Shown: positions 4,055 to 29,504 of the stretch, piece after piece
Layout of the letters: every line of letters begins with the position of its first letter
How positions within the stretch are numbered: the first letter of the stretch is position 1
From: Arthrobacter sp. U41
Lineage (GTDB): Bacteria > Actinomycetota > Actinomycetes > Actinomycetales > Micrococcaceae
Length of the DNA stretch: 64,000 nt
Direction: 5' to 3'
NCBI RefSeq assembly: GCF_007679325.1
Contig: NZ_VEGI01000001.1
Span: forward strand, 1,798,001 to 1,862,000
Program-made: the position numbers and the translations under genes
The notes under the pieces: generated by a model
The model's database searches: none
Told to the model about the DNA's origin: nothing
The model's input: the letters and a program-made list of their open reading frames with translations, nothing else

Positions 4055-6274
4055 CTAGCGGATTCCTGCCTCCGCGGCTTCCGGCTCCGCGGCGGGCAGG
4101 GTGCGGGCGGCAGCATCCGCCTCGGGGCGTCCCAGCTTGCTGGGCCACCAGATCCGGGGGCCGATGTCGTAGGCCAAGGCCGGGACCAGCAGGGACCGGA
4201 CCAGGACGGTGTCCAGCAGAACGCCGAAGGCCACGATGAAGGCCAGCTGCACCAGGAACATGATGGGGATGACGCCCAGTGCCGCGAAGGTGGCCGCGAG
4301 CACCACACCGGCGGACGTGATCACGCCGCCCGTGACGCCCAACCCGCGCAGGACGCCGGCCCGGGTGCCGTGCTTCAGGGACTCCTCCCGGACCCGGCTC
4401 ATCAGGAAGATGTTGTAGTCCACGCCGAGGGCGACGAGGAAGACGAACCCGAAGAGCGGAACCGTGGCGTCCGCTCCCGGGAAGCCGAAGACGTTGTTGA
4501 ACACGATGGCGGAGACGCCCATCGCAGCGCCGTAGGAAAGCACCACCGAGGCCACCAGCAGCACCGGCGCCAGCACCGAGCGCAGCAGCAGCATCAGGAT
4601 GACCAGGATGACCGCGAGCACCACCGGGATGATGGTGACGAGGTCGCGCTGGGCGGTGGTGTTCGTGTCCAGGGCGGTGGCGGTCACGCCGCCCACCAGT
4701 GCGCCGTCGTCGATCTTCTTGAGGTCCTCGCGGAGGGCCACCACTACGTCTTCCGCCTCGTTGGAGTCCGCGGCGAAGTTCAGCGTGGCGTTGATCAGGA
4801 CCTTTCCGTCCCGCACCGCCGGTTCCGTGGGAGCCGCGGGAGCGCCGGGAGCAGCCGGCGCGCCGGTGATCGGCACGCCGCCGTCGGCCAGCAGGTAGGC
4901 GTCCCCGACGCCGTCGGTCGCCTTGGTCTGTTCCAGCACTTCCTGCGCCTTCGCTTCGTCGGCGACGATCACGGCGGGGCTGCCGGAGCCGGCGTCGAAG
5001 TGCCGGGCCAGGGCGTCCTGGCCGTCGACGGCATTGGAGGCGGTGAGGATGACATCGGTCTGCGGGACGCCGTTGGCCTTGAGCTGCAGGACGCCGGCCG
5101 AGGCCACGAGGAGCAGCAGGACGGAGGCGATCCAGACGGTCCGGGGCCGGCGGGACACGAGGGAACCGGTGGCGCGCCATACGCCCTTCTGCCCTTCAAG
5201 GCCGGTGACGAGTTCAGGCTCGCGCTCGGTCTCCGGGAGCAGCTTGGGCACGAAGGGCCAGAACGCGGCGCGGCCCAGCAGCGCCATCAGCGCCGGCAGC
5301 AGGGTCAACGCGGCGAAGAGCGAGCAGAGGATGCCCGCGGCGGCCACCGGTCCGAGGGCCTTGTTGGAGTTGAGGTCGGAGAACAGCAGGCAGAGCAGGG
5401 CGATGATGACCGTCGCGCCGGAGGCAACGATAGGTTCCCAGGAATTTTTCCATGCGGTGAGTACGGCTGCCGTGCGGTTGGTGGTGTGCGTCAGGGCTTC
5501 CCGGAACCGTGCCACGTAGAGCAGCGCGTAGTCCGTGGCGGCGCCGATCACCAGGATGGACAGGATGCCCTGGCTCTGGCCATTGAGCTGGATCCAGCCC
5601 AGTTTCGCCATGCCGAAAACCAGCAGGATGGCGGCGCAAAGGGCGAAGACGGACGTGAACAGCACAGCGATCGGCAGCAGCAACGAGCGGTAGACAATCA
5701 GCAGGATCAGGAACACGGCGCCCAGGGCCACCAGCAGCAGGATGCCGTCAATGCCGGCGAAGGCGCTGACCAGATCAGCGGTCAGCCCGGCCGGGCCGGT
5801 CACAAAGGTCTGCATGCCCTCCGGGGCGGACGCCTGCACCTCCTCGCGGAGTTCCGCAACCATTTCCTTCACTTCGCCGGCCGAATCGATCGGCACAACG
5901 AACTGCACGGCCTTGCCGTCCTCGGACGGGATGGGGCCGATGACAGTACTGCCGGCACCGACGGCCTCAAGATCTCCCTTGAGGGCTGCCACCTCACCAA
6001 GCTGCGCCGGGGTGAAGGCGGAGTCACTCTCGATGACAATGACGGCGGGGATCTCATCAGTGTCCCGGAACTTGGCCTGCCAGTCCTGGGCCGCCGTGGC
6101 CTCGGCCCCTGCCGGGAGGAAGGACGCCTGGTCGTTCGAGGAGACCTCCTCCAGCCGGCCGAAGGTGGGTCCGCCGATCCCGGCGATGGCCAGCCACGTG
6201 AAAACCAGCAGCACGGGAACCAGCCAGCGCAGCCAGAAGGGGACGCGGGCACCGGATCGTGGAGTCTTGTTCAT
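4055..6274 (-). CDS. MMPL/RND-family membrane transporter
   Basis: A 739-residue inner-membrane exporter of the MMPL branch of the RND superfamily, with about 12 transmembrane segments. TM1 is at residues ~10-35, then a periplasmic domain, a block of TMs, a second large extracytoplasmic loop containing an Ala/Pro-rich insert (GAPAAPGAPAAPTEP), and the final TM block. The motif GAATDYALLYVARFRE in the first TM block and GVDYNIFLMSRVREE in the second are the conserved Asp-Tyr signature of the family. The ATG at 6274 is preceded by AGAAGGAACC. It is divergent from a MarR regulator across a palindromic operator, typical of an inducible drug or lipid exporter. The substrate is not deducible. Confidence 0.92.
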   Translation of the reverse strand: MNKTPRSGARVPFWLRWLVPVLLVFTWLAIAGIGGPTFGRLEEVSSNDQASFLPAGAEATAAQDWQAKFRDTDEIPAVIVIESDSAFTPAQLGEVAALKGDLEAVGAGSTVIGPIPSEDGKAVQFVVPIDSAGEVKEMVAELREEVQASAPEGMQTFVTGPAGLTADLVSAFAGIDGILLLVALGAVFLILLIVYRSLLLPIAVLFTSVFALCAAILLVFGMAKLGWIQLNGQSQGILSILVIGAATDYALLYVARFREALTHTTNRTAAVLTAWKNSWEPIVASGATVIIALLCLLFSDLNSNKALGPVAAAGILCSLFAALTLLPALMALLGRAAFWPFVPKLLPETEREPELVTGLEGQKGVWRATGSLVSRRPRTVWIASVLLLLVASAGVLQLKANGVPQTDVILTASNAVDGQDALARHFDAGSGSPAVIVADEAKAQEVLEQTKATDGVGDAYLLADGGVPITGAPAAPGAPAAPTEPAVRDGKVLINATLNFAADSNEAEDVVVALREDLKKIDDGALVGGVTATALDTNTTAQRDLVTIIPVVLAVILVILMLLLRSVLAPVLLVASVVLSYGAAMGVSAIVFNNVFGFPGADATVPLFGFVFLVALGVDYNIFLMSRVREESLKHGTRAGVLRGLGVTGGVITSAGVVLAATFAALGVIPIMFLVQLAFIVAFGVLLDTVLVRSLLVPALAYDIGPRIWWPSKLGRPEADAAARTLPAAEPEAAEAGIR

Positions 6275-7052: not shown

Positions 7053-8346
7053 CCACCGTTTCCGGTCGCCCCGCGGGCGGTCTCCTCCGGTCCGCCCGGG
7101 CCGCCCAGACTGCCCCCGCGGCCAGGCCCAGGGGGACCACAAGCGCCCAGCCGCTGAAGAGCAGCACGGCCAGCATCACCACGGCGGCCACAATAACGCC
7201 GTACCAGGCCGGCGTCCGGGCGGGCAGCAGACGGATCCCGGCCACCAGGCCGAACGCCGTCACGGCGGTGAAGCAGGCCGATGCCGCCCCGATCTGGAAC
7301 TGCATGTTGCTCAGCCCGGCCGCGGCCGCCCCGAAGGACAGGAACGTCATCGCAGCCAGCAGCCCAAGGCTGGCTCCGGGCACCCGGCCCGGCCCGGCGC
7401 CCCGCGCCAGGGCCCGCGGCAGCACGCCGTCGGACGCCAGGCTGGCGCCCAGCCGGCTGGCACCGGCAACGAAGGTGTTGATCGGGCCGAACGTCAGCAC
7501 CGCGGCGGCGACGGCGGTCAGCGGGGCGGCGAGTCCGCCGAGTCCCTTTTCGAGCAGTTGCGCGATGGGCACGTCGCTGCCGGGGAGGGCCGGTCCCAGT
7601 ACGGCGACCGAGGCCGCGACGACGCCGATGTACACCACGCCCACCACGATCAGGGTGAGCCAGGTGGCGCGCTTGAGGTCGCGTTCCGGGTTGCGGAATT
7701 CGCCGGCAAGGTGTGTGACCGCCTCCCAGCCGGCGAAGCAGAAGAAGAGCAGGCTGGCCACCCCGCCCACGGCCCAGTAGCCGTGCGGCGCGAACGGCGT
7801 GAAGTTTTCGGCTCTAGCGAACGGCGCGGCGAGGGCGACCGCCAGCGCCAGCAGCCCGACCAGCAGCACCATCAGCACCAGCTGGATGCCGCTGGACATC
7901 CGGATCCCGACGGCGTTGGATCCGAACGCGGCGGCCAGCAGCAGCGCCGCCGCCAGCAGCGCCGTCCCGCGGCCGCCGCCCAGGGCGTGGGCGATGTAGT
8001 TGCCGCCGATGACGGCCGTCGCGGGAGCGCCGAAGGGAATGGCGAAGTAGAAGAGGTAGCCGGCCACGGCCGAGGCGCGCCGTCCGTAGGCGCGCGTCAC
8101 AAAGTGGGCGATTCCGCCGGCGTCGGGCTGCTGGCGGCTCATCTCCGCGAAGCTGAAGGCAACGGGGGTGCAGAACACCAGCAGCAGGGTCCACGCCAGG
8201 AGCGACGCGGGGCCGGCCTCTTTGGCGGCGATCGCCGGGAGGACCAGGATGCCGGAGCCCAGGATCGCCCCGACATAGATACCGGTCGCCCGGAACAGCC
8301 CGAGCCCTGCCTGCTTGCTGCTGTTGATGTTCACTCCTCTAATCAT
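6982..8346 (-). CDS. APC-family amino acid permease
   Basis: A membrane transporter of ~454 residues with 12 predicted TM segments. The N-terminal signature IYVGAILGSGILVLPAIAAKEAGP is that of amino acid/polyamine/organocation (APC) carriers, and LLFFCFAGWEAVTHLAGEFRNPERD is the conserved TM6/loop region. The start is uncertain: ATG 8346 is used, GTG 8334 is also possible, and AGAGGAG lies too close to the latter. The hydrophilic Pro/Ala-rich C-terminal tail overlaps the end of marR by 71 bp. The substrate is unknown. Confidence 0.87.
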   Translation of the reverse strand: MIRGVNINSSKQAGLGLFRATGIYVGAILGSGILVLPAIAAKEAGPASLLAWTLLLVFCTPVAFSFAEMSRQQPDAGGIAHFVTRAYGRRASAVAGYLFYFAIPFGAPATAVIGGNYIAHALGGGRGTALLAAALLLAAAFGSNAVGIRMSSGIQLVLMVLLVGLLALAVALAAPFARAENFTPFAPHGYWAVGGVASLLFFCFAGWEAVTHLAGEFRNPERDLKRATWLTLIVVGVVYIGVVAASVAVLGPALPGSDVPIAQLLEKGLGGLAAPLTAVAAAVLTFGPINTFVAGASRLGASLASDGVLPRALARGAGPGRVPGASLGLLAAMTFLSFGAAAAGLSNMQFQIGAASACFTAVTAFGLVAGIRLLPARTPAWYGVIVAAVVMLAVLLFSGWALVVPLGLAAGAVWAARADRRRPPAGRPETVVTAVQLEAVPSGVTAAAPPPARP

Positions 8347-8457
8347 CCGCACCATGGCCCCGGGCAGAAGCAGCAAAACAGACGGGCAGGCATGAATTCC
8401 TGCCGTCTTCCTTCCGGCTGTTTCCCCCGGTTCCGCGGATTTTCCGGCGCGCGGCGG

Positions 8458-8469
8458 TAGCGTTTCATT
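8458..8469 (+). promoter_or_regulatory. Leaderless -10 element of the methyltransferase gene
   Basis: TAGCGT followed by exactly 6 nt and then ATG at 8470, with no Shine-Dalgarno. This is the TANNNT-N6-start arrangement of actinobacterial leaderless mRNAs. Confidence 0.5.
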
Positions 8470-9285
8470 ATGAGTGCGCAGCAGCCTGAAGATGTGTACA
8501 GCCACGGCCACCACGAGTCGGTGGTCCGCGCCCACGCCTCGCGGACGGCGGAGAACTCCGCGGCCTTTGTGATCCCGCACCTCATCCCCGGAGCCTCACT
8601 GCTCGACGTCGGCTGCGGACCGGGCAGCATCACATGCGATTTCGCCGGGCTCGTCTCCCCCGGGAAAGTCACCGGCCTGGACCGCTCGCCTGAGGTGATC
8701 AGCCACGCGACTGCCCTCGCGGCGGAGCGCGGCGTGCCGAATGTCGAGTTTGTGGCCGGCAACATCTACGACCTCGACTTCGCGGATGAAACCTTCGACG
8801 TCGTGCACGCCCACCAAGTGCTGCAGCACCTCACGGACCCGGTCGCCGCCCTCCGGGAAATGCGCCGCGTCGCCAAACCCGGCGGGATCGTGGCGGTGCG
8901 CGACGCCGATTTCCACGGCATGAGCTGGTTCCCGGCCGTCCCCGAGCTGGATGAATGGATGGAGCTCTACCAGCGCATTGCACGCCGCAACGGGGCCGAG
9001 CCCGACGCCGGCCGCCGCCTGGTTTCCTGGGCCCAGTCCGCCGGATTCACCGACGTCGCACCCTCCAGCAGCAACTGGCTCTACGCCACCGGCCAGCAGC
9101 GCCGTTGGCAGGCGCGGGTGTGGGGCGAACGGGTGCTGCACTCGGCCTTCGCGGACCAGGCGCTCGAGTACGGTTTCGCCAACGCCGCCGATCTGGCCCG
9201 GATATCGGCCGGCTGGCACCGCTGGGGCTCCACGGAAGACGGCTGGTTCCTGATCCCCAACGGCGAGGTCATCGCCCGGGCCTGA
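8470..9285 (+). CDS. Class I SAM-dependent methyltransferase (UbiE/Methyltransf_11-like)
   Basis: A 271-residue soluble enzyme. The SAM-binding motif I is LLDVGCGPGSIT (~residues 43-54), motif II is GKVTGLDRSPEVI, and motif III/post-I is FDVVHAHQVLQHLTDP. The C-terminal part (from WFPAVPELDEWMELYQRIAR) resembles ubiquinone/menaquinone-type and small-molecule methyltransferases, but not well enough to name a substrate. It stands alone between an oppositely oriented permease and a LysE exporter, and probably has a leaderless transcript. Confidence 0.88.
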   Translation: MSAQQPEDVYSHGHHESVVRAHASRTAENSAAFVIPHLIPGASLLDVGCGPGSITCDFAGLVSPGKVTGLDRSPEVISHATALAAERGVPNVEFVAGNIYDLDFADETFDVVHAHQVLQHLTDPVAALREMRRVAKPGGIVAVRDADFHGMSWFPAVPELDEWMELYQRIARRNGAEPDAGRRLVSWAQSAGFTDVAPSSSNWLYATGQQRRWQARVWGERVLHSAFADQALEYGFANAADLARISAGWHRWGSTEDGWFLIPNGEVIARA

Positions 9286-9383
9286 GCTGCCACCCCGGCC
9301 AGCCCGGCGGTGCCGCCCGGAATGTGACGCGACTATGTCCCTCCTGCCGGAACTCCCTGCCGCCGCAGGCGCTGAACTCGCCG

Positions 9384-9395
9384 TAAACTGGCTCC
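9384..9395 (+). promoter_or_regulatory. Leaderless -10 element of the LysE-family gene
   Basis: TAAACT (9384-9389), then 6 nt, then GTG 9396. There is no Shine-Dalgarno. Confidence 0.5.
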
Positions 9396-10019
9396 GTGCA
9401 ACCCTCCCTTTGGCTGGCCCTGGCGGGCGCCGGCGTCCTGATCAGCTTCACGCCCGGCGCGGGCGCCATCAACACCATGAGCAACTCGCTGAACTCCGGT
9501 TTCCGGCGTGCCATCTGGGGAATCCTGGGGCAGCAGGCGGCACTGATCGTGCACGTTGTGATCGTCGCCTTGGGCGTCGGCGTCCTGGTGGCCAGCTCGC
9601 CGTTCGCCTTCAACGCGATCCGCTACGCCGGCGCGGCCTACCTCGTCTACCTAGGCATCCAGCAGTTCCGGCGCAAACCCGACCTGGACCAGGAGAAGGC
9701 CGCCGCGCTGCGCAATGAGCCGGGCCTCTCCATGTTCCGCCGCGGCCTGTGGGTCAACCTGCTGAACCCCAAGGCGATCGTGTTCTTCCTGGCTTTTATG
9801 CCCCAGTTCATCCGCCCGGAGGAACCGCTGCTGCCGCAGTACCTGGTCCTGTCAGCCACCGTGGTGGTGATCGACATCCTGGTGATGTGGTTCTTCTTCG
9901 CAGCCGCGGCCAAGTCCTTCCAGCGTTTCACACACGATGCCCGCGGACAGCGGATCCTCAACCGGACGTTCGGCGTGCTGTTTATGGCCGTCGGCGTGAT
10001 GCTGGCCCTCATCCACTGA
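9396..10019 (+). CDS. LysE/RhtB family amino acid exporter
   Basis: A 207-residue protein with six predicted TM segments. The family signature ISFTPGAGAINTMSNSLNSG (residues ~17-36) matches the LysE/RhtB translocator motif, followed by GILGQQAALIVHVVIVALGVG. Length is normal for the family. Its function is efflux of an amino acid or homoserine-lactone-like compound. The GTG start follows a -10 element at leaderless spacing. It is monocistronic in appearance. Confidence 0.92.
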   Translation: MQPSLWLALAGAGVLISFTPGAGAINTMSNSLNSGFRRAIWGILGQQAALIVHVVIVALGVGVLVASSPFAFNAIRYAGAAYLVYLGIQQFRRKPDLDQEKAAALRNEPGLSMFRRGLWVNLLNPKAIVFFLAFMPQFIRPEEPLLPQYLVLSATVVVIDILVMWFFFAAAAKSFQRFTHDARGQRILNRTFGVLFMAVGVMLALIH

Positions 10020-15399: not shown

Positions 15400-16152
15400 T
15401 CAGCCCTTGGCGAGTGCTTCGTCCACGAGACGGGCCAGGTCCTCTGACGCATCCGCGGTGAGCCCGGTGCCCGACGCCACGGCCGAGGCGGACAACGTCC
15501 CCTTGGTTCCCATGACCACTACTGTCTTCATCGTCTGCCCGGAGGGCAGCGTCTGGGTGGACAGGGAGCTGAACGAATTGTCTCCGGCTGTTTGCACGTC
15601 CAGGACTTCGGTCTTGGTGGTGATTTTCTGGCCCTGGAGCTCCAACGTGAAGTTGGAACACTTCGCGCTGTTCATCTGGGAGGCCTCGACGTTGCTGCTC
15701 AAGAGCTCCGGGTCGGTGACCGCCACGAGGGTGAGCACTGTGATGGCTTCCTCCTTGGCCGATTCGGAGCCGCCGGCGGCGTAGGTGCTGCCCTCGGGAA
15801 TCTGCGCGCTGCTGTCGGCAAGGGCGCCGCATTCCGCCGGAGTGATCTTGGCGGCGGCCATCATCTCGCGGGCCGATTCAATGCCCTGGTCCAGCTCGCT
15901 TGCCGGAACGGCAGCCAGCGGCTGCCCTGCGGCGTCTTTCAGCCCGGCGATGATCGCGGCCAGCTCCTTCTCCGCGTACGCCTTCGGCGTGGGAGTCGGT
16001 GTGGCGGAGGGGCTCGCGGCCGGCGAGGCCGCCAGCGATTCCCCCGAAGCCGGCGAGGACGAGCCCCCGGCGGCAGACGGCGAGCCGCAACCGGCGAGCG
16101 CCAGCGTTGTCGCGAGAAGGAGCGCGGCCGGTGTGATGCTTCGAAGATTCAT
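15400..16152 (-). CDS. Secreted lipoprotein of unknown function
   Basis: A 250-residue protein with a classic lipoprotein signal: MNLRS, a hydrophobic stretch, and lipobox L19-A-G-C22. A Ser/Ala/Pro/Thr-rich linker follows (residues ~24-58), and then a globular domain with two internal Cys residues (AECGALA and SAKCSNF) that may form a disulphide. No family is recognised. The start is the ATG at 16152, preceded by GGGGACCTCC-type sequence with GGACC. It converges with pabC and lies downstream of the glycan operon on the same strand, 124 bp after its last gene, so it may or may not belong to it. Confidence 0.75.
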   Translation of the reverse strand: MNLRSITPAALLLATTLALAGCGSPSAAGGSSSPASGESLAASPAASPSATPTPTPKAYAEKELAAIIAGLKDAAGQPLAAVPASELDQGIESAREMMAAAKITPAECGALADSSAQIPEGSTYAAGGSESAKEEAITVLTLVAVTDPELLSSNVEASQMNSAKCSNFTLELQGQKITTKTEVLDVQTAGDNSFSSLSTQTLPSGQTMKTVVVMGTKGTLSASAVASGTGLTADASEDLARLVDEALAKG

Positions 16153-16276: not shown

Positions 16277-17362
16277 CTAGCCCCACGCCGTCCGGAGTGC
16301 CGCCCAGGCGTCGTCGTCGAGCATGCTGGACGGAGTGACCGCGACGGCGGTCGCCCCGCCTGAGACGGACGCCGCCAGCCCGGCGGCCAGGTCCTCGGCG
16401 GAGATGCTGCCCGTCGTCGCCCACATGCCGACGGACATAACGAACTCGGGAGAGCGCTTCGCCATCGCCCGGGCCACTTCGGCGGAGTATCCGGGTTCCT
16501 TGCCGTTGAGCCCGAAGTAGTTCCACACCACCAGCCGGTCCGCGGCCGAGGCCAGGAGGCCGTAGTCATGGCCGCTCTCCCGGCGGTCGCCGGCCGGATC
16601 GTCCCACGGAGCCCGGACGTCCATGTCCAGGGTGGCCCCGTTTTGATGTGCCGCCGCCGCGGCCTTCGCCACCACGGAGGCCAGCGCCCCGGAGCGCCAC
16701 GCCGCGATGCTCGGATGTCCGGCGTCGATGTCCCCGTTCGCCAGCCGGGGCCAGTCGGTGGTGCCGCTGGCCAGCATGTAAGAATCCCGGTCGTCGCCCC
16801 CGTAGGTGTTGTTGTCGAACATCAGCTCGGTCAGGGCCACGGCGTCCGGCCGGTAGCGTTTGGTCACCTCGGCCACGAACTCCACCAGCCGTTCCCCGAC
16901 GGGCCCGGTGGTGAGGGCGGTGACGCTGGCAAAGTCCGTGGACCGGGTGCCGTCGAAGTTGATGCCCGCCAGGCCGGGGCTCGTGCTGATCCAGCCCGGG
17001 ATCAGCAGGTCCACGGTTAGGGTGACTTTCCGCTTACTGCCGTCGCTGCCGGTTCCGAGGGCTTTGATCGCCTCGGCGACGTGGTCCCGGCCCGGGACCG
17101 CCTCCAACTCCGGGTGGACGGCCCAGGGGAAGGCCGTCCAGTCCAGCCGTCCGACGCTGATGGTCACGCTGTTGGCGTTGACCTCGTCGAGCCTCGTGGC
17201 CAGCGCCGGCAGGGTGTGGGCGGCATCGACGACGGTCTCGTAACCGACGCCGACGGTCCGTTCCGCGGCGGGCGAGGCGACCGCCGCCGGCTGCTCCTGC
17301 GGCCCGGAACACGAGGTCACGGCGAGCGCCAGCACGGACAGGAGACCCACAACCCCTCTCAA
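16277..17362 (-). CDS. Lipoprotein with glycoside-hydrolase-like TIM-barrel domain
   Basis: A ~361-residue exported protein, last gene of a four-gene operon. TTG at 17362 overlaps the stop of the upstream glycosyltransferase (TTGA). GTG further in is possible. The leader ends in a lipobox-like AVTSC (Cys ~18). The body has features of a (beta/alpha)8 hydrolase: VEFVAEVTKRYRPDAVALTELMFD with a candidate catalytic Glu at the end of a strand, LDMDVRAPWDDP, and DRLVVWNYFGLNGKEPGYS. This resembles GH18-like or GHL-type barrels but I cannot assign a family. Given its partners it may trim or remodel a surface polysaccharide, analogous to the C-terminal domain of PgaB. That analogy is inference. Confidence 0.65.
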   Translation of the reverse strand: MRGVVGLLSVLALAVTSCSGPQEQPAAVASPAAERTVGVGYETVVDAAHTLPALATRLDEVNANSVTISVGRLDWTAFPWAVHPELEAVPGRDHVAEAIKALGTGSDGSKRKVTLTVDLLIPGWISTSPGLAGINFDGTRSTDFASVTALTTGPVGERLVEFVAEVTKRYRPDAVALTELMFDNNTYGGDDRDSYMLASGTTDWPRLANGDIDAGHPSIAAWRSGALASVVAKAAAAAHQNGATLDMDVRAPWDDPAGDRRESGHDYGLLASAADRLVVWNYFGLNGKEPGYSAEVARAMAKRSPEFVMSVGMWATTGSISAEDLAAGLAASVSGGATAVAVTPSSMLDDDAWAALRTAWG

Positions 17363-18654
17363 GCCCGGACTTTCGCGCGTGGCGCCGGGACGTTCACGCT
17401 GACAATCCCGGTCCGGGTGAGCTTGTTCCAGCGGGCTTCCTTCCTGCGCAGTTCCTGGCTGAGGGCGGCGACCATCGTCAGGCTGGTGAACACGGAATAC
17501 AACGGGATCAGCGGCAACACCCAGAAGTGCCGCAGGTCTTTCCACGCCCGGTTCATGCCCAGGGCGCAGACCGACAGGACGAGTGTCACAATCAAGCCGA
17601 GCCAGCCCAGGAACGCCCAGGCATCGCCGCCGAGCGGGCTGTAGCCCAGGGCGAGGAGGAACGTCAGGTCCAGGAGGACCAGGATCTGGACCACGGGCAG
17701 GACCACCATGGTGATGGCGTTGAACAGCAGGTAGGCGCCGAACCTGCCGTGCCGGAGATTGCCGATCATGCCCTTGTGGAGAGCCATGGTCTGCAGCAGG
17801 CCGCGGGCCCACCGGACCCGCTGCCGCCACAGCGCTCCGATGGTCGACGGGGATTCGGCATAGACCAGTGCCCGCGGCGTGAAGACAACGCGGTAGCCCG
17901 CCTTGTGCACCCGCCAGGTCAGTTCCAGGTCCTCGCCCACGGTGTCTTCGCGGAACGGCCCGATTTCCTCCACAACCCTGCGCGGGAATGCACCAATGTT
18001 GCCGGAGACGATGGGCAGGCATCCGATGACGGTCAGTGCGCGCCGGACCATACCGGTGCCGATGTGGCTGATGAAGGCCAGCATCCGGGTCTGGGCCCGG
18101 TTCAGGTTCACCGGCCGGTCATCGCCGCAGACGGCCCCGGTGCGCCCGTCCTCAAAACCCTGGAGCATTTTCTCTACGGTGTACCGGGAGAAGATGCCGT
18201 CCGCGTCCACGAACATCAGGACGTCGCCCGATGCGTTGCGGATGCCCAGATTCAGGGCCGCTCCCTTGCCTGCGTTGGCCTGGGTGAGGACCCTGATCCG
18301 GTAATCCCCGGCGGCGAGGCCTGCCATCAGCTCTGCCGTGTTGTCGGTTGAGCCGTCGTCCACCAGGATCACCTCGTAACGGTCATACCGGGTGAGCTGG
18401 ATCGATCGGACGCAGTTCTCGATCACGGTTGCCTCATTGTAGGCGGGCACGATGATTGACACGCTGGGCCATTCATCGTGCAGTGTGGGGGCTTCCCGCC
18501 GCCGCCGCCTGGCGGCACGGATTTCAAACCAGACGGAGAGCGGCAGCACCAGCAGTTTGACGAGTCCGAAGAACAGGATAGGCAGGCCCAGCACCAGGAG
18601 CAGGAGCTGCGCCCCGGGGAGGGCTGGCCCGAAGGATGATTCAAACCAGGACAT
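17359..18654 (-). CDS. Processive family 2 glycosyltransferase (PgaC/IcaA/hyaluronan-synthase-like)
   Basis: A 431-residue polytopic enzyme: N-terminal TMs at ~15-45, a cytosolic GT-A domain, and three or four C-terminal TMs. Catalytic motifs: VDDGSTDNT at ~98-106, DAD at 150-152, GEDLELTWR, and QRVRWARG (the QxxRW-type motif of processive beta-glycosyltransferases). ATG 18654 has AGGAGCG upstream and overlaps the ATP-grasp gene by 14 bp. It likely polymerises and extrudes a beta-linked polymer such as an N-acetylhexosamine homopolymer, which the PIG-L deacetylase in the same operon could modify. Confidence 0.9.
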   Translation of the reverse strand: MSWFESSFGPALPGAQLLLLVLGLPILFFGLVKLLVLPLSVWFEIRAARRRRREAPTLHDEWPSVSIIVPAYNEATVIENCVRSIQLTRYDRYEVILVDDGSTDNTAELMAGLAAGDYRIRVLTQANAGKGAALNLGIRNASGDVLMFVDADGIFSRYTVEKMLQGFEDGRTGAVCGDDRPVNLNRAQTRMLAFISHIGTGMVRRALTVIGCLPIVSGNIGAFPRRVVEEIGPFREDTVGEDLELTWRVHKAGYRVVFTPRALVYAESPSTIGALWRQRVRWARGLLQTMALHKGMIGNLRHGRFGAYLLFNAITMVVLPVVQILVLLDLTFLLALGYSPLGGDAWAFLGWLGLIVTLVLSVCALGMNRAWKDLRHFWVLPLIPLYSVFTSLTMVAALSQELRRKEARWNKLTRTGIVSVNVPAPRAKVRA

Positions 18655-19585
18655 TGGCGTACGCTCCTGTGCTTTGCCGGAAGGATGCCGGATTGAAGGA
18701 TGGGAGGGCGAAGGACGCCAGCACGGCGTCAAGCAGTTCGGGGGCGCGCGCGCTGTTCGCGCCGAACCGGGCGTTCACCTCCAGCACCACGGGGGTCCCG
18801 TCCGCGCGGCGGCGAACGTCCACGTCCACCGGGCCGGTGAGGCCCAGTGCGCGGACGGCGGCGAGCGCCACATTGCCGACGTCGACCGCTTCGCCGGCGT
18901 CGGCCCGGCGGGTGGCTACGGCGTTCCCGACGTTGCCTTGCGCCAACTCCGTTTTCTCGACCACGACGACGAACGGTGCGGCGCCGTTATGCGCCGGCGT
19001 GCCGAACACCATGGGTCCGTACTCGGCCCCGGGGATGAACTCCTGAACGATCTGCCCGGCCGGGAGACGGTGCCAGTCCACCTCCGTGCCGGCGTCGATG
19101 ACGGCCACGCCGCGCCCGCCACGGGACACCCGGGGCTTGACGACCACGGGTCCCCCCAGCGCGGCCATGGCTGCCTTCGCGTCGGCATAGTCGCCGGGCA
19201 CCCCGAAACGGGGCACCGGGACTCCGGCCGAGTGCAGCTGCCAGGCGGTGAACAGCTTGTCGTCGGCGAGCGCCACCGGACCGGGGTCCCCGATGATCAC
19301 GCGGACCTCCGCCCCGAACGCCGCCCGGTACGCCGCAAGCTGAGGGAGTTCCTCGCTCACGGTGGGAATGATCATGTTGATGCCCTCCTGCACGACGATC
19401 CTGCGGAGCGCCGAAACCAGGTCCGGGTCCGAGGCGGGAGGGACGGGAACGACCGTCAGGCCTGCGCCGGCGGGAAGCTCGCGGATGTCGGTGCCGAGGA
19501 CGGGGATGCCGCGGTCTTTCAGCTGGGCGGCAATGGCGCGGCCCGCGGGCCCTCCCGCGCCGGTGACCAGGACGCGGGGTTTCAC
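18641..19585 (-). CDS. ATP-grasp ligase (carbamoyl-phosphate-synthase-like)
   Basis: A 314-residue cytosolic enzyme. The N-terminal Rossmann-like pre-ATP-grasp domain starts VLVTGAGGPAGRAIAAQL. The ATP-grasp core has PVVVKPRVSRGGRGV (ATP-binding lysine) and VVLEVNARFGANSARAPELL (metal-binding Glu/Asn). Members ligate an amino acid, carboxylate or ammonia through an acyl-phosphate. GTG 19585 overlaps the upstream stop (GTGA), so it is translated with the PIG-L gene. Its place between a deacetylase and a glycosyltransferase suggests it acylates a sugar amine or carboxylate of the operon's product. The substrate cannot be read from the sequence. Confidence 0.85.
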   Translation of the reverse strand: MKPRVLVTGAGGPAGRAIAAQLKDRGIPVLGTDIRELPAGAGLTVVPVPPASDPDLVSALRRIVVQEGINMIIPTVSEELPQLAAYRAAFGAEVRVIIGDPGPVALADDKLFTAWQLHSAGVPVPRFGVPGDYADAKAAMAALGGPVVVKPRVSRGGRGVAVIDAGTEVDWHRLPAGQIVQEFIPGAEYGPMVFGTPAHNGAAPFVVVVEKTELAQGNVGNAVATRRADAGEAVDVGNVALAAVRALGLTGPVDVDVRRRADGTPVVLEVNARFGANSARAPELLDAVLASFALPSFNPASFRQSTGAYANVLV

Positions 19586-20487
19586 AGCTTCTCCAGTTCC
19601 GTGTTCAGCAGACGGATGGGCTCATAGGCTTCGGCGACCCTGCGGCGGGCCTGCCCGCCGCGGAAGGAGGCGATGCCCCGGACCCGTTCGGGGGTCATGT
19701 ACGGCTTGGCCAGCTGGTCGCTGTGCATCTTGACCGCCTGGACCTTGGCATCCATGTAGTCGTCAATGTCGACGAAAACGCTCGGATTGAATTCGCGCGT
19801 CGCTGAAGGGCTTTCGTAGCAGAGAATCGAGTGATGCTGGCGGGCTGCCCGGAGTGTGGCCTGGTGGACGGCCTGGTGGTCCTGGTGCTGGTCATGGTTG
19901 GAGTGAGTCAGGATGATGTCGGGGTTATAGCGGGCGATCGCCGCCTCGATGACACCAACCATCTCCTGGCTGTGCCGGGTCAGTTCCGTGTCGGTGAAAT
20001 TGTGGTGGGCCATCCCGGTGAGGCCCATGAACTCCGCGCCGCGCTGCGCATCCAGCGAGCGCTCCAGGGCGTCACCGCCGCGCTTGCCGTCGCTCATGAC
20101 GAGTCCCTGGACCTCGTGCCCGGAGTCCACGAATTTTGCCAGGGTTCCCCCGCAGGCCAGTTCAAGGTCGTCCGGATGGGCGCCGATTGCCAGGACACGG
20201 CGGGGCTGGCGGGCCGGGACTCCCCCGGTGCGCAGGGCCGTCATGACCACGCCCAGTGCCGCGAGGCCGCCGACGGTTGCAGTGAAGTTCGCGGTCCGCC
20301 AGAACTGCGATGCCTCGAGGAGGAAGCAGGCAAGATTCGTCATGAGCAACGTGCCGCCCACAACGAGCGAAACCTGCCGCAGCAACTCGGGCCGGCGCAG
20401 CCGGCGGTGGAACCAGGAGCGGCCGACGGCGGCAGCGACCAGGAATGTGATCAGAAAAACAATCAGCAAAACATATATCGAGACCAT
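19582..20487 (-). CDS. Membrane-anchored PIG-L family deacetylase
   Basis: A 301-residue protein. Residues 1-~88 hold three predicted membrane segments (VSIYVLLIVFLITFLVAAAV, VSLVVGGTLLMTNLACFLL, TATVGGLAALGVVMTAL). The rest is a PIG-L/LmbE zinc deacetylase domain: AHPDD at 103-107 and the second zinc motif THSNHDQHQDHQAVH. Known members remove acetyl from N-acetylglucosamine in GPI, mycothiol or bacillithiol precursors. MshB-type proteins lack TMs, so a membrane-linked substrate is likely here. It is the first gene of a coupled four-gene operon. Confidence 0.9.
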   Translation of the reverse strand: MVSIYVLLIVFLITFLVAAAVGRSWFHRRLRRPELLRQVSLVVGGTLLMTNLACFLLEASQFWRTANFTATVGGLAALGVVMTALRTGGVPARQPRRVLAIGAHPDDLELACGGTLAKFVDSGHEVQGLVMSDGKRGGDALERSLDAQRGAEFMGLTGMAHHNFTDTELTRHSQEMVGVIEAAIARYNPDIILTHSNHDQHQDHQAVHQATLRAARQHHSILCYESPSATREFNPSVFVDIDDYMDAKVQAVKMHSDQLAKPYMTPERVRGIASFRGGQARRRVAEAYEPIRLLNTELEKL

Positions 20488-20810: not shown

Positions 20811-20827
20811 CGAGTAGGCGCTACTCG
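20811..20827. promoter_or_regulatory. Palindrome CGAGTAG-N3-CTACTCG
   Basis: A perfect 7-bp-arm inverted repeat with GCG centre. Related half-sites (GAGTCC, GAGTA, TACTCG) occur at 20790-20895. It is in the long divergent intergenic region between the PIG-L operon and the methionine operon and looks like a regulator binding site. Confidence 0.55.
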
Positions 20828-20858: not shown

Positions 20859-20893
20859 CGGGTAGTACTCGCATTCATTAATTCGACTACCCG
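20859..20893. promoter_or_regulatory. Inverted repeat CGGGTAGT-N19-ACTACCCG
   Basis: Perfect 8-bp arms around an AT-rich 19-bp centre that also contains TACTCG. It could be a second site for the same regulator as the 20811 palindrome. Confidence 0.5.
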
Positions 20894-21022: not shown

Positions 21023-21104
21023 GAGTAATGAGAACCGGCACCAAGCCCTGACTGGCCGGTCGGCAACCCTCCCTTTCGCGGCGGGGTGCCTCAGGTGAAT
21101 ACTC
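21023..21104 (+). ncRNA. SAM-IV riboswitch
   Basis: The segment reproduces the actinomycete SAM-IV pattern. Closing helix GAGTA/TACTC (21023-21027 with 21100-21104), then CCGGCACCAAGCCCTG, GGCCGGTCGGCAACCCTCC, and the GGGGTGCC-TCAGGTGA 3' part. S-adenosylmethionine binding would repress the downstream DUF1737-rhodanese-metZ operon. The call is from sequence similarity to the known class, and its position before metZ fits exactly. Confidence 0.88.
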
Positions 21105-21151
21105 GGCATATCGACCATTCGAGCTGCAAGCGTGAAAGAAGGAGTTCCGTC

Positions 21152-29100: not shown

Positions 29101-29176
29101 GTCGTCCTCCTGAGGAACAGGAGGGGAGAGTGCCCGCCGGCCGCGGCTTCCGCCGTCGCTCCGGGCACTCTGAGAA

Positions 29177-29265
29177 CTCGACTCCCTTGCGCCGGTACTA
29201 ACCGGATCAGGTTCGAGGGTCTGCGGCTGTCCGCACTCTCAGCGCCCACCTGTGGTTCCCCCGGA
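29177..29265 (-). ncRNA. TPP riboswitch (THI-box)
   Basis: On the minus strand GCGCTGAGAGTGC contains the invariant CTGAGA (29242-29237), and ACCTGATCCGGTTAGTACCG followed by GCGCAAGGGAG (29212-29182) is the second conserved half. It lies about 80 nt before the YkoE-type gene, giving repression of the ECF operon by thiamine pyrophosphate. Outer helix borders are approximate. Confidence 0.93.
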
Positions 29266-29504
29266 TTCCTCCGGTGAGGCCCGACGGCGGCGCTCCCCTG
29301 TCGTATCTAAATGTCGCCCTTATGGGCGTGGCCCAGTTTACACCCGTGGGGACCGTCATCTCCGGGTCCGGTCGTCACAATCCGTCGGTTCCGGCGCCGG
29401 TGACCTGGGACGTCCTGCTTGATAGAGTCGGCAACGCAGGGAAAACGCCGGAGGCCGCCGTGTGCCGGCCGCCCGGCGGCGGCCACTAACGGAAGCTGAA
29501 TGAC
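29266..29504. other. Intergenic region upstream of riboswitch and UPF0303 gene
   Basis: Must hold divergent promoters for the thiamine-precursor ECF operon (minus) and the UPF0303 gene (plus). I see no gene here. The open frame across it has no ribosome binding site. Confidence 0.4.

Follow-up and report, generated by a model that had tools for sequence, protein, structure and literature searches.

The closest described counterparts of the operon examined here, which occupies positions 16277-20487 on the minus strand of a 64-kb stretch (the window) of the 3.9-Mb Arthrobacter sp. U41 genome (NZ_VEGI01000001.1), are the pgaABCD and icaADBC operons. With these it shares a PgaC/IcaA-like family 2 glycosyltransferase (GT2), an N-deacetylase and an exported barrel predicted to have the fold of the C-terminal GH153 domain of PgaB. 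It differs in that the deacetylase is a PIG-L protein predicted to face the cytoplasm, whereas PgaB and IcaB have extracytoplasmic CE4 deacetylases, in that there is an additional ATP-grasp ligase, and in that the barrel is a separate lipoprotein without recognisable GH153 sequence. Neither among the four genes nor immediately next to them is there a gene for a small membrane subunit of the PgaD/IcaD type and, as the GT2 is also below the PgaC_IcaA cut-off and no CE4 deacetylase is present, the operon is not a member of the pga/ica family. In mycothiol and bacillithiol synthesis (MshB-MshC, BshB-BshC), a PIG-L enzyme frees the amine of glucosamine and a ligase then adds an amino acid. These pathways, of which the MshC step has been described (PMC9736012), differ from the operon in having soluble small-molecule products, a ligase that is not an ATP-grasp enzyme and no polysaccharide synthase. 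The PIG-L of the glycosylphosphatidylinositol (GPI) pathway is likewise membrane-anchored with its catalytic side in the cytosol, but is eukaryotic and acts on N-acetylglucosaminyl-phosphatidylinositol, and that pathway has no ATP-grasp and makes no polymer. To our knowledge, the Streptomyces MatAB system has neither a PIG-L nor an ATP-grasp. It resembles the operon in that an actinobacterial amino-sugar polymer, poly-N-acetylglucosamine (PNAG), is made by a GT2 (PMC5972031). An ATP-grasp amino-acyl ligase has also been annotated in a surface-carbohydrate cluster and such ligases proposed to acylate surface sugars, but those clusters are multi-gene, with nucleotide-sugar and export genes, and no PIG-L/synthase triad was reported (PMC4000134).

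The operon is genuine and conserved and, within the searches made, represents an undescribed variant of the synthase-dependent operons for exopolysaccharides. The preliminary description of this DNA, made from the sequence alone, knew of no described system with this set of genes, and none was found in the open-licence literature searched; those papers contained no description of a PIG-L plus ATP-grasp operon, nor of PIG-L in connection with exopolysaccharides. The four genes, in order of transcription, are:

19582-20487, minus strand: PIG-L (PF02585) N-deacetylase, ATG start, 301 amino acids, three N-terminal transmembrane (TM) helices, catalytic domain predicted cytoplasmic.
18641-19585, minus strand: ATP-grasp ligase (PF02655/PRK12767-like; folds nearest 2pn1, 3vot and PylC), GTG start, 314 amino acids.
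17359-18654, minus strand: GT2 polysaccharide synthase, PgaC/IcaA-like, ATG start, 431 amino acids, QRVRW motif, one N-terminal and three C-terminal TM segments.
16277-17362, minus strand: lipoprotein, predicted (beta/alpha)8 barrel resembling the PgaB GH153 domain, TTG start, 361 amino acids, lipobox VTSC, Glu179 invariant.

All junctions are overlapping, by 4 bp (GTGA) between PIG-L and ATP-grasp, 14 bp between ATP-grasp and GT2 and 4 bp (TTGA) between GT2 and lipoprotein, so the shortest overlap is 4 bp rather than the 3 bp originally given. The GT2 matches PF00535 with 125 bits, and its best NCBIfam model is TIGR03937 (PgaC_IcaA), at 202.4 bits and below the equivalog cut-off of 422.3. Along 267 residues of the catalytic core it shares 34% identity with PgaC of E. 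coli, and the motifs DDG, DxD, GED and QRVRW, the last being the QxxRW signature noted at the outset, are invariant in eleven homologues. These similarities support a PNAG-type polysaccharide synthase, though not thereby a PNAG synthase.

The order PIG-L, ATP-grasp, GT2, barrel was found in relatives across Arthrobacter and in a second Micrococcales family. The nearest named relative, Arthrobacter sp. Leaf69, is 91-97% identical across all four proteins, and the order is also present in seven more Arthrobacter genomes, at 74-97% identity, as well as in L010 and on an Arthrobacter megaplasmid (L009; compared loci carry L numbers), and in L016 and L018, from the other family, at 37-60% protein identity. 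The junctions in these relatives are mostly overlapping or abutting and, as order and tight junctions persist at 35-60% identity, the association of the genes is not due to chance. One locus, L011, has a single ATP-grasp and two tandem PIG-L-GT2-barrel sets (L011:5004-14490); its upstream open reading frame (ORF) at 5004-5978 resembles a decayed second ATP-grasp. The four-gene system is, however, rare in the genomes sampled. Of 151 family genomes, 4 have a barrel match; the corresponding figures are 5 of 297 for the order, 4 of 395 for the class and, for the phylum sample, 1 of 397, this being the genome itself. Within the family sample the ATP-grasp occurs in seven genomes and a close GT2 in five, all among those seven, and two of these (L067 and L068) have PIG-L, ATP-grasp and GT2 without the barrel. 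The conserved core is therefore these three genes, and the initial view of a four-gene unit holds for the operon but not for all four genes as its core. The cluster also decays: an ATP-grasp gene stands alone beside phosphoenolpyruvate (PEP) carboxylase at L069:6417-7364 and L070:6405-7328, where L010 has the full cluster, apparently as a remnant after loss of the other genes, and L071:6106-6817 is the remnant of a broken barrel gene with the other three absent. Scans of viral contigs with the ATP-grasp and barrel profiles gave no homologue and no annotated phage was matched, so there is no sign that the cluster is phage cargo.

The PIG-L protein scores 91.8 bits against PF02585 (cut-off 28.2) and has three N-terminal helices, as first described for this N-deacetylase family member. 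Its metal-site motifs AHPDD and HQDH (HxxDH type) are invariant across homologues, with H104-D107 and H201-H204 conserved. Against the NCBIfam equivalogs for bacillithiol BshB1 and mycothiol MshB it scores 88.2 and 21.2, under the respective cut-offs of 182.5 and 224.35. In most homologues, arginine and lysine counts put the beginning of the catalytic domain and the loop joining helices 1 and 2 on the inside and the loop joining helices 2 and 3 on the outside, and this positive-inside pattern predicts a cytoplasmic catalytic domain. Independent support comes from relatives (L017, L030, L031 and L032) in which ATP-grasp, GT2 and barrel genes occur without the membrane PIG-L, and are adjoined instead by a fusion of a receiver (REC) domain to PIG-L that lacks membrane helices and lies beside a histidine kinase gene. 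The REC domain was recognised by Pfam in L017, L030 and L032 and by receiver sequence in L031:

L017:6763-7854, plus strand: REC-PIG-L fusion, with a PAS-HisKA-HATPase histidine kinase (Pfam) at 7851-9590.
L030:12163-13269, minus strand: REC-PIG-L fusion, homologous kinase ORF adjacent.
L031:12444-13523, minus strand: REC-PIG-L fusion, homologous kinase ORF adjacent.
L032:12570-13634, minus strand: REC-PIG-L fusion, homologous kinase ORF adjacent.

In a tree of PIG-L domains these four group apart from the membrane form (100/100), together with REC-PIG-L proteins of a sister cluster that comprises REC-PIG-L, an ATP-grasp (PF15632, the Ter-operon ATP-grasp family), a PHP protein and a GT2 with QRLRW. 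This cluster occurs in several Micrococcales families:

L036:248-4525: sister cluster.
L037:8609-12838: sister cluster.
L041-L045, L047 and L048: sister cluster.

L046 has only its first two genes, with a histidine kinase adjoining instead, L044 has histidine-kinase-like sequence upstream of the sister cluster, and one genome (G222) has both cluster types. The fusion suggests that REC-PIG-L is a response regulator with a carbohydrate deacetylase as its output, and no description of a PIG-L joined to a receiver domain was found in the open-licence papers.

With a catalytic domain predicted to be cytoplasmic, PIG-L would be no drop-in substitute for the extracytoplasmic PgaB/IcaB deacetylase that works on exported polymer. 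The earlier remark that the deacetylase here is of another family than in PNAG systems is upheld, but the predicted topology and the REC-PIG-L proteins of relatives speak against action on exported polymer. Since such a polymer is out of reach both for a deacetylase in the cytosol and for a ligase that uses ATP, the substrate would be an activated sugar or chain end inside the cell. From the topology and the domain fusion we infer cytoplasmic deacetylation, with deacetylation and ligation both probably acting on a precursor or a cytoplasmic chain end.

The ATP-grasp scores 53.7 bits against PF02655 (cut-off 23.2). Its ATP- and metal-binding residues K110, K150, E269 and N271 (the lysine pair and E-x-N) are invariant across homologues, and its AlphaFold2 model (predicted local distance difference test, pLDDT, 86.7) is closest in fold to 2pn1 (uncharacterised), the L-amino-acid ligase 3vot, PylC and D-Ala-D-Ala ligases (Ddl). 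The simplest reading, plausible by its parallel with mycothiol and bacillithiol, is that it would form an amide with the amine that PIG-L exposes. L020-L023 have a second copy some 2.4 kb downstream of the cluster (L020:11486-12454, L021:11509-12465, L022:11474-12427 and L023:11441-12397) in which E-x-N is lost (EVNARFG to GVCAT(L/M)G) and which may be a paralogue without catalytic activity.

The lipoprotein has no Pfam or NCBIfam family match. AlphaFold2, given twelve natural homologues, predicts with a mean pLDDT of 90.9 eight alternating strands (residues 34-39, 65-72, 112-118, 174-178, 244-250, 276-281, 307-312 and 339-343), a clean (beta/alpha)8 arrangement, so that the TIM barrel first proposed agrees with the structure prediction. 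Gene order in relatives and the fold of the lipoprotein were the two checks that could have refuted the preliminary description, and neither did. In a Foldseek search of the PDB, the best E-values belong to beta-amylases and the PgaB/BpsB GH153 domain, GH20 also matches, and the highest TM-scores are those of PgaB/BpsB GH153 domains (4p7o, 0.68/0.71; 6au1, 0.66/0.67). The acids E179, D118 and D248 are invariant and placed like active-site residues. Glu179 directly follows strand 4 and, by strand order alone, may correspond to the catalytic Asp474 of GH153, which in Bordetella bronchiseptica PgaB is at the end of strand 4 (PMC5933820). In L030-L032 an N-terminal membrane anchor replaces the lipobox. 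Among viral models the top match is BFVD A0A8S5Q971 (Siphoviridae sp. ctjOC2; 29% identity, TMt 0.86), a protein of a phage contig named 'PgaB glycoside hydrolase' and the closest structural relative of the barrel; phages may carry this relative as a depolymerase, though it did not turn up in the collections searched.

It is quite possible, if somewhat short of an even chance, that the operon makes a synthase-dependent surface amino-sugar polymer whose N-acetyl groups are replaced by a different acyl group prior to export, and that the barrel trims the product outside. PIG-L would strip the N-acetyl group from a GlcNAc-type precursor in the cytoplasm, be it a UDP-sugar, a lipid-linked starter or a cytoplasmic chain end, and the ATP-grasp would then link the freed amine by an amide bond to a carboxylic acid, for which an amino acid is the likeliest candidate. 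The GT2 would polymerise the modified sugar, or extend the modified chain end, and extrude the polymer, which the lipid-anchored GH153-like barrel would bind and cut outside the cell. The gene set, its conserved order, the motifs, the resemblance to PgaB and the predicted fold are the observations from which we infer the amide formation, the polymer identity and the trimming; the re-acylation step, which the preliminary description put forward as acylation of free amines, is plausible. Several points weigh against this pathway. None of the four proteins has a known substrate, other products of ATP-grasp superfamily enzymes include thioesters, esters and carboxylates, and we know of no precedent for a processive synthase that takes an N-aminoacyl UDP-sugar. 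No sugar-nucleotide or amino-acid supply gene accompanies the cluster in the compared loci. For the barrel, none of 15 members matches PF14883 at E <= 1, and hhalign alignments with six PgaB domains are not significant, though they span end to end; homology to GH153 was tried in three ways by profile comparison, none of them significant, so the likeness rests on fold. The initial idea of a PNAG-like glycan hydrolase thus stands for the PgaB GH153 fold but not for GH153 sequence membership.

Rather than re-acylation, there could be plain partial deacetylation of a PNAG-type polymer by PIG-L complexed with the GT2, at the cytoplasmic chain end or on UDP-GlcNAc, giving a product like deacetylated PNAG, with the ATP-grasp acting elsewhere, for example on a terminal cap or linker. 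A PgaC/IcaA-like GT2 and a barrel resembling PgaB GH153, which cuts partly deacetylated PNAG (PMC5933820), are consistent with this, but the ATP-grasp sits between PIG-L and GT2 in almost all intact clusters of this type (type A), three-gene forms included, and also partners REC-PIG-L in the sister cluster. The ATP-grasp therefore looks central, and we regard plain deacetylation as unlikely. That the barrel has no hydrolase activity and instead binds the glycan for export or retention, the pathway being otherwise as proposed, would accord with its dispensability (absent from the intact L067 and L068 operons, a relic in L071) and with the lack of GH153 sequence membership; given the invariance of its active-site-like acids (E179 after strand 4, D118, D248), this seems quite improbable. 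A glycolipid pathway, in which the GT2 puts GlcNAc on a membrane lipid for deacetylation by PIG-L at the cytoplasmic leaflet, the ATP-grasp adds an amino acid and the lipoprotein acts after flipping, has in its favour the GPI-like arrangement of a membrane-anchored, cytoplasm-facing PIG-L and the fact that QxxRW is not exclusive to polymerases, HpnI being a GT2 that works with a deacetylase, but is very unlikely with a GT2 that scores 202 bits to PgaC_IcaA and 34 to HpnI and a long-groove GH153-like barrel that fits a chain.

The proposed exchange of acyl groups may, more tentatively, define an actinobacterial exopolysaccharide class in which N-acetyl groups give way to other acyl groups in the cytoplasm, ahead of polymerisation, and in which, in some lineages, deacetylation is under direct two-component control with PIG-L as the output. 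PNAG and similar known biofilm polysaccharides are altered after export. If the proposal is correct, deacetylation and re-acylation before export would give new charges and side groups, and, where a REC fusion adjoins a histidine kinase, the composition of the glycan would come under direct control of a signal, with no need for transcription.

Two repeats lie upstream of the operon:

20812-20826: perfect palindrome GAGTAG-GCG-CTACTC, the sole such site in the genome.
20859-20893: inverted repeat CGGGTAGT/ACTACCCG with 8-nt arms, in the same region upstream of PIG-L.

The palindrome is conserved in part among Arthrobacter relatives and is a possible operator. The block with both repeats is kept in Arthrobacter relatives even where the divergent neighbour changes. 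A search upstream of the operon found no riboswitch of its own; the SAM-IV riboswitch at 21024-21138 was rejected as it belongs to the divergent methionine genes. A small lipoprotein gene downstream (15400-16053), and the cardiolipin synthase and PEP carboxylase genes beside some clusters, were rejected as parts of the operon because none follows the cluster. The SAM-IV riboswitch, on the plus strand, precedes genes for a rhodanese and an O-succinylhomoserine sulfhydrylase-like protein, and the same window has a thiamine pyrophosphate (TPP) riboswitch on the opposite, minus strand at 29166-29309.

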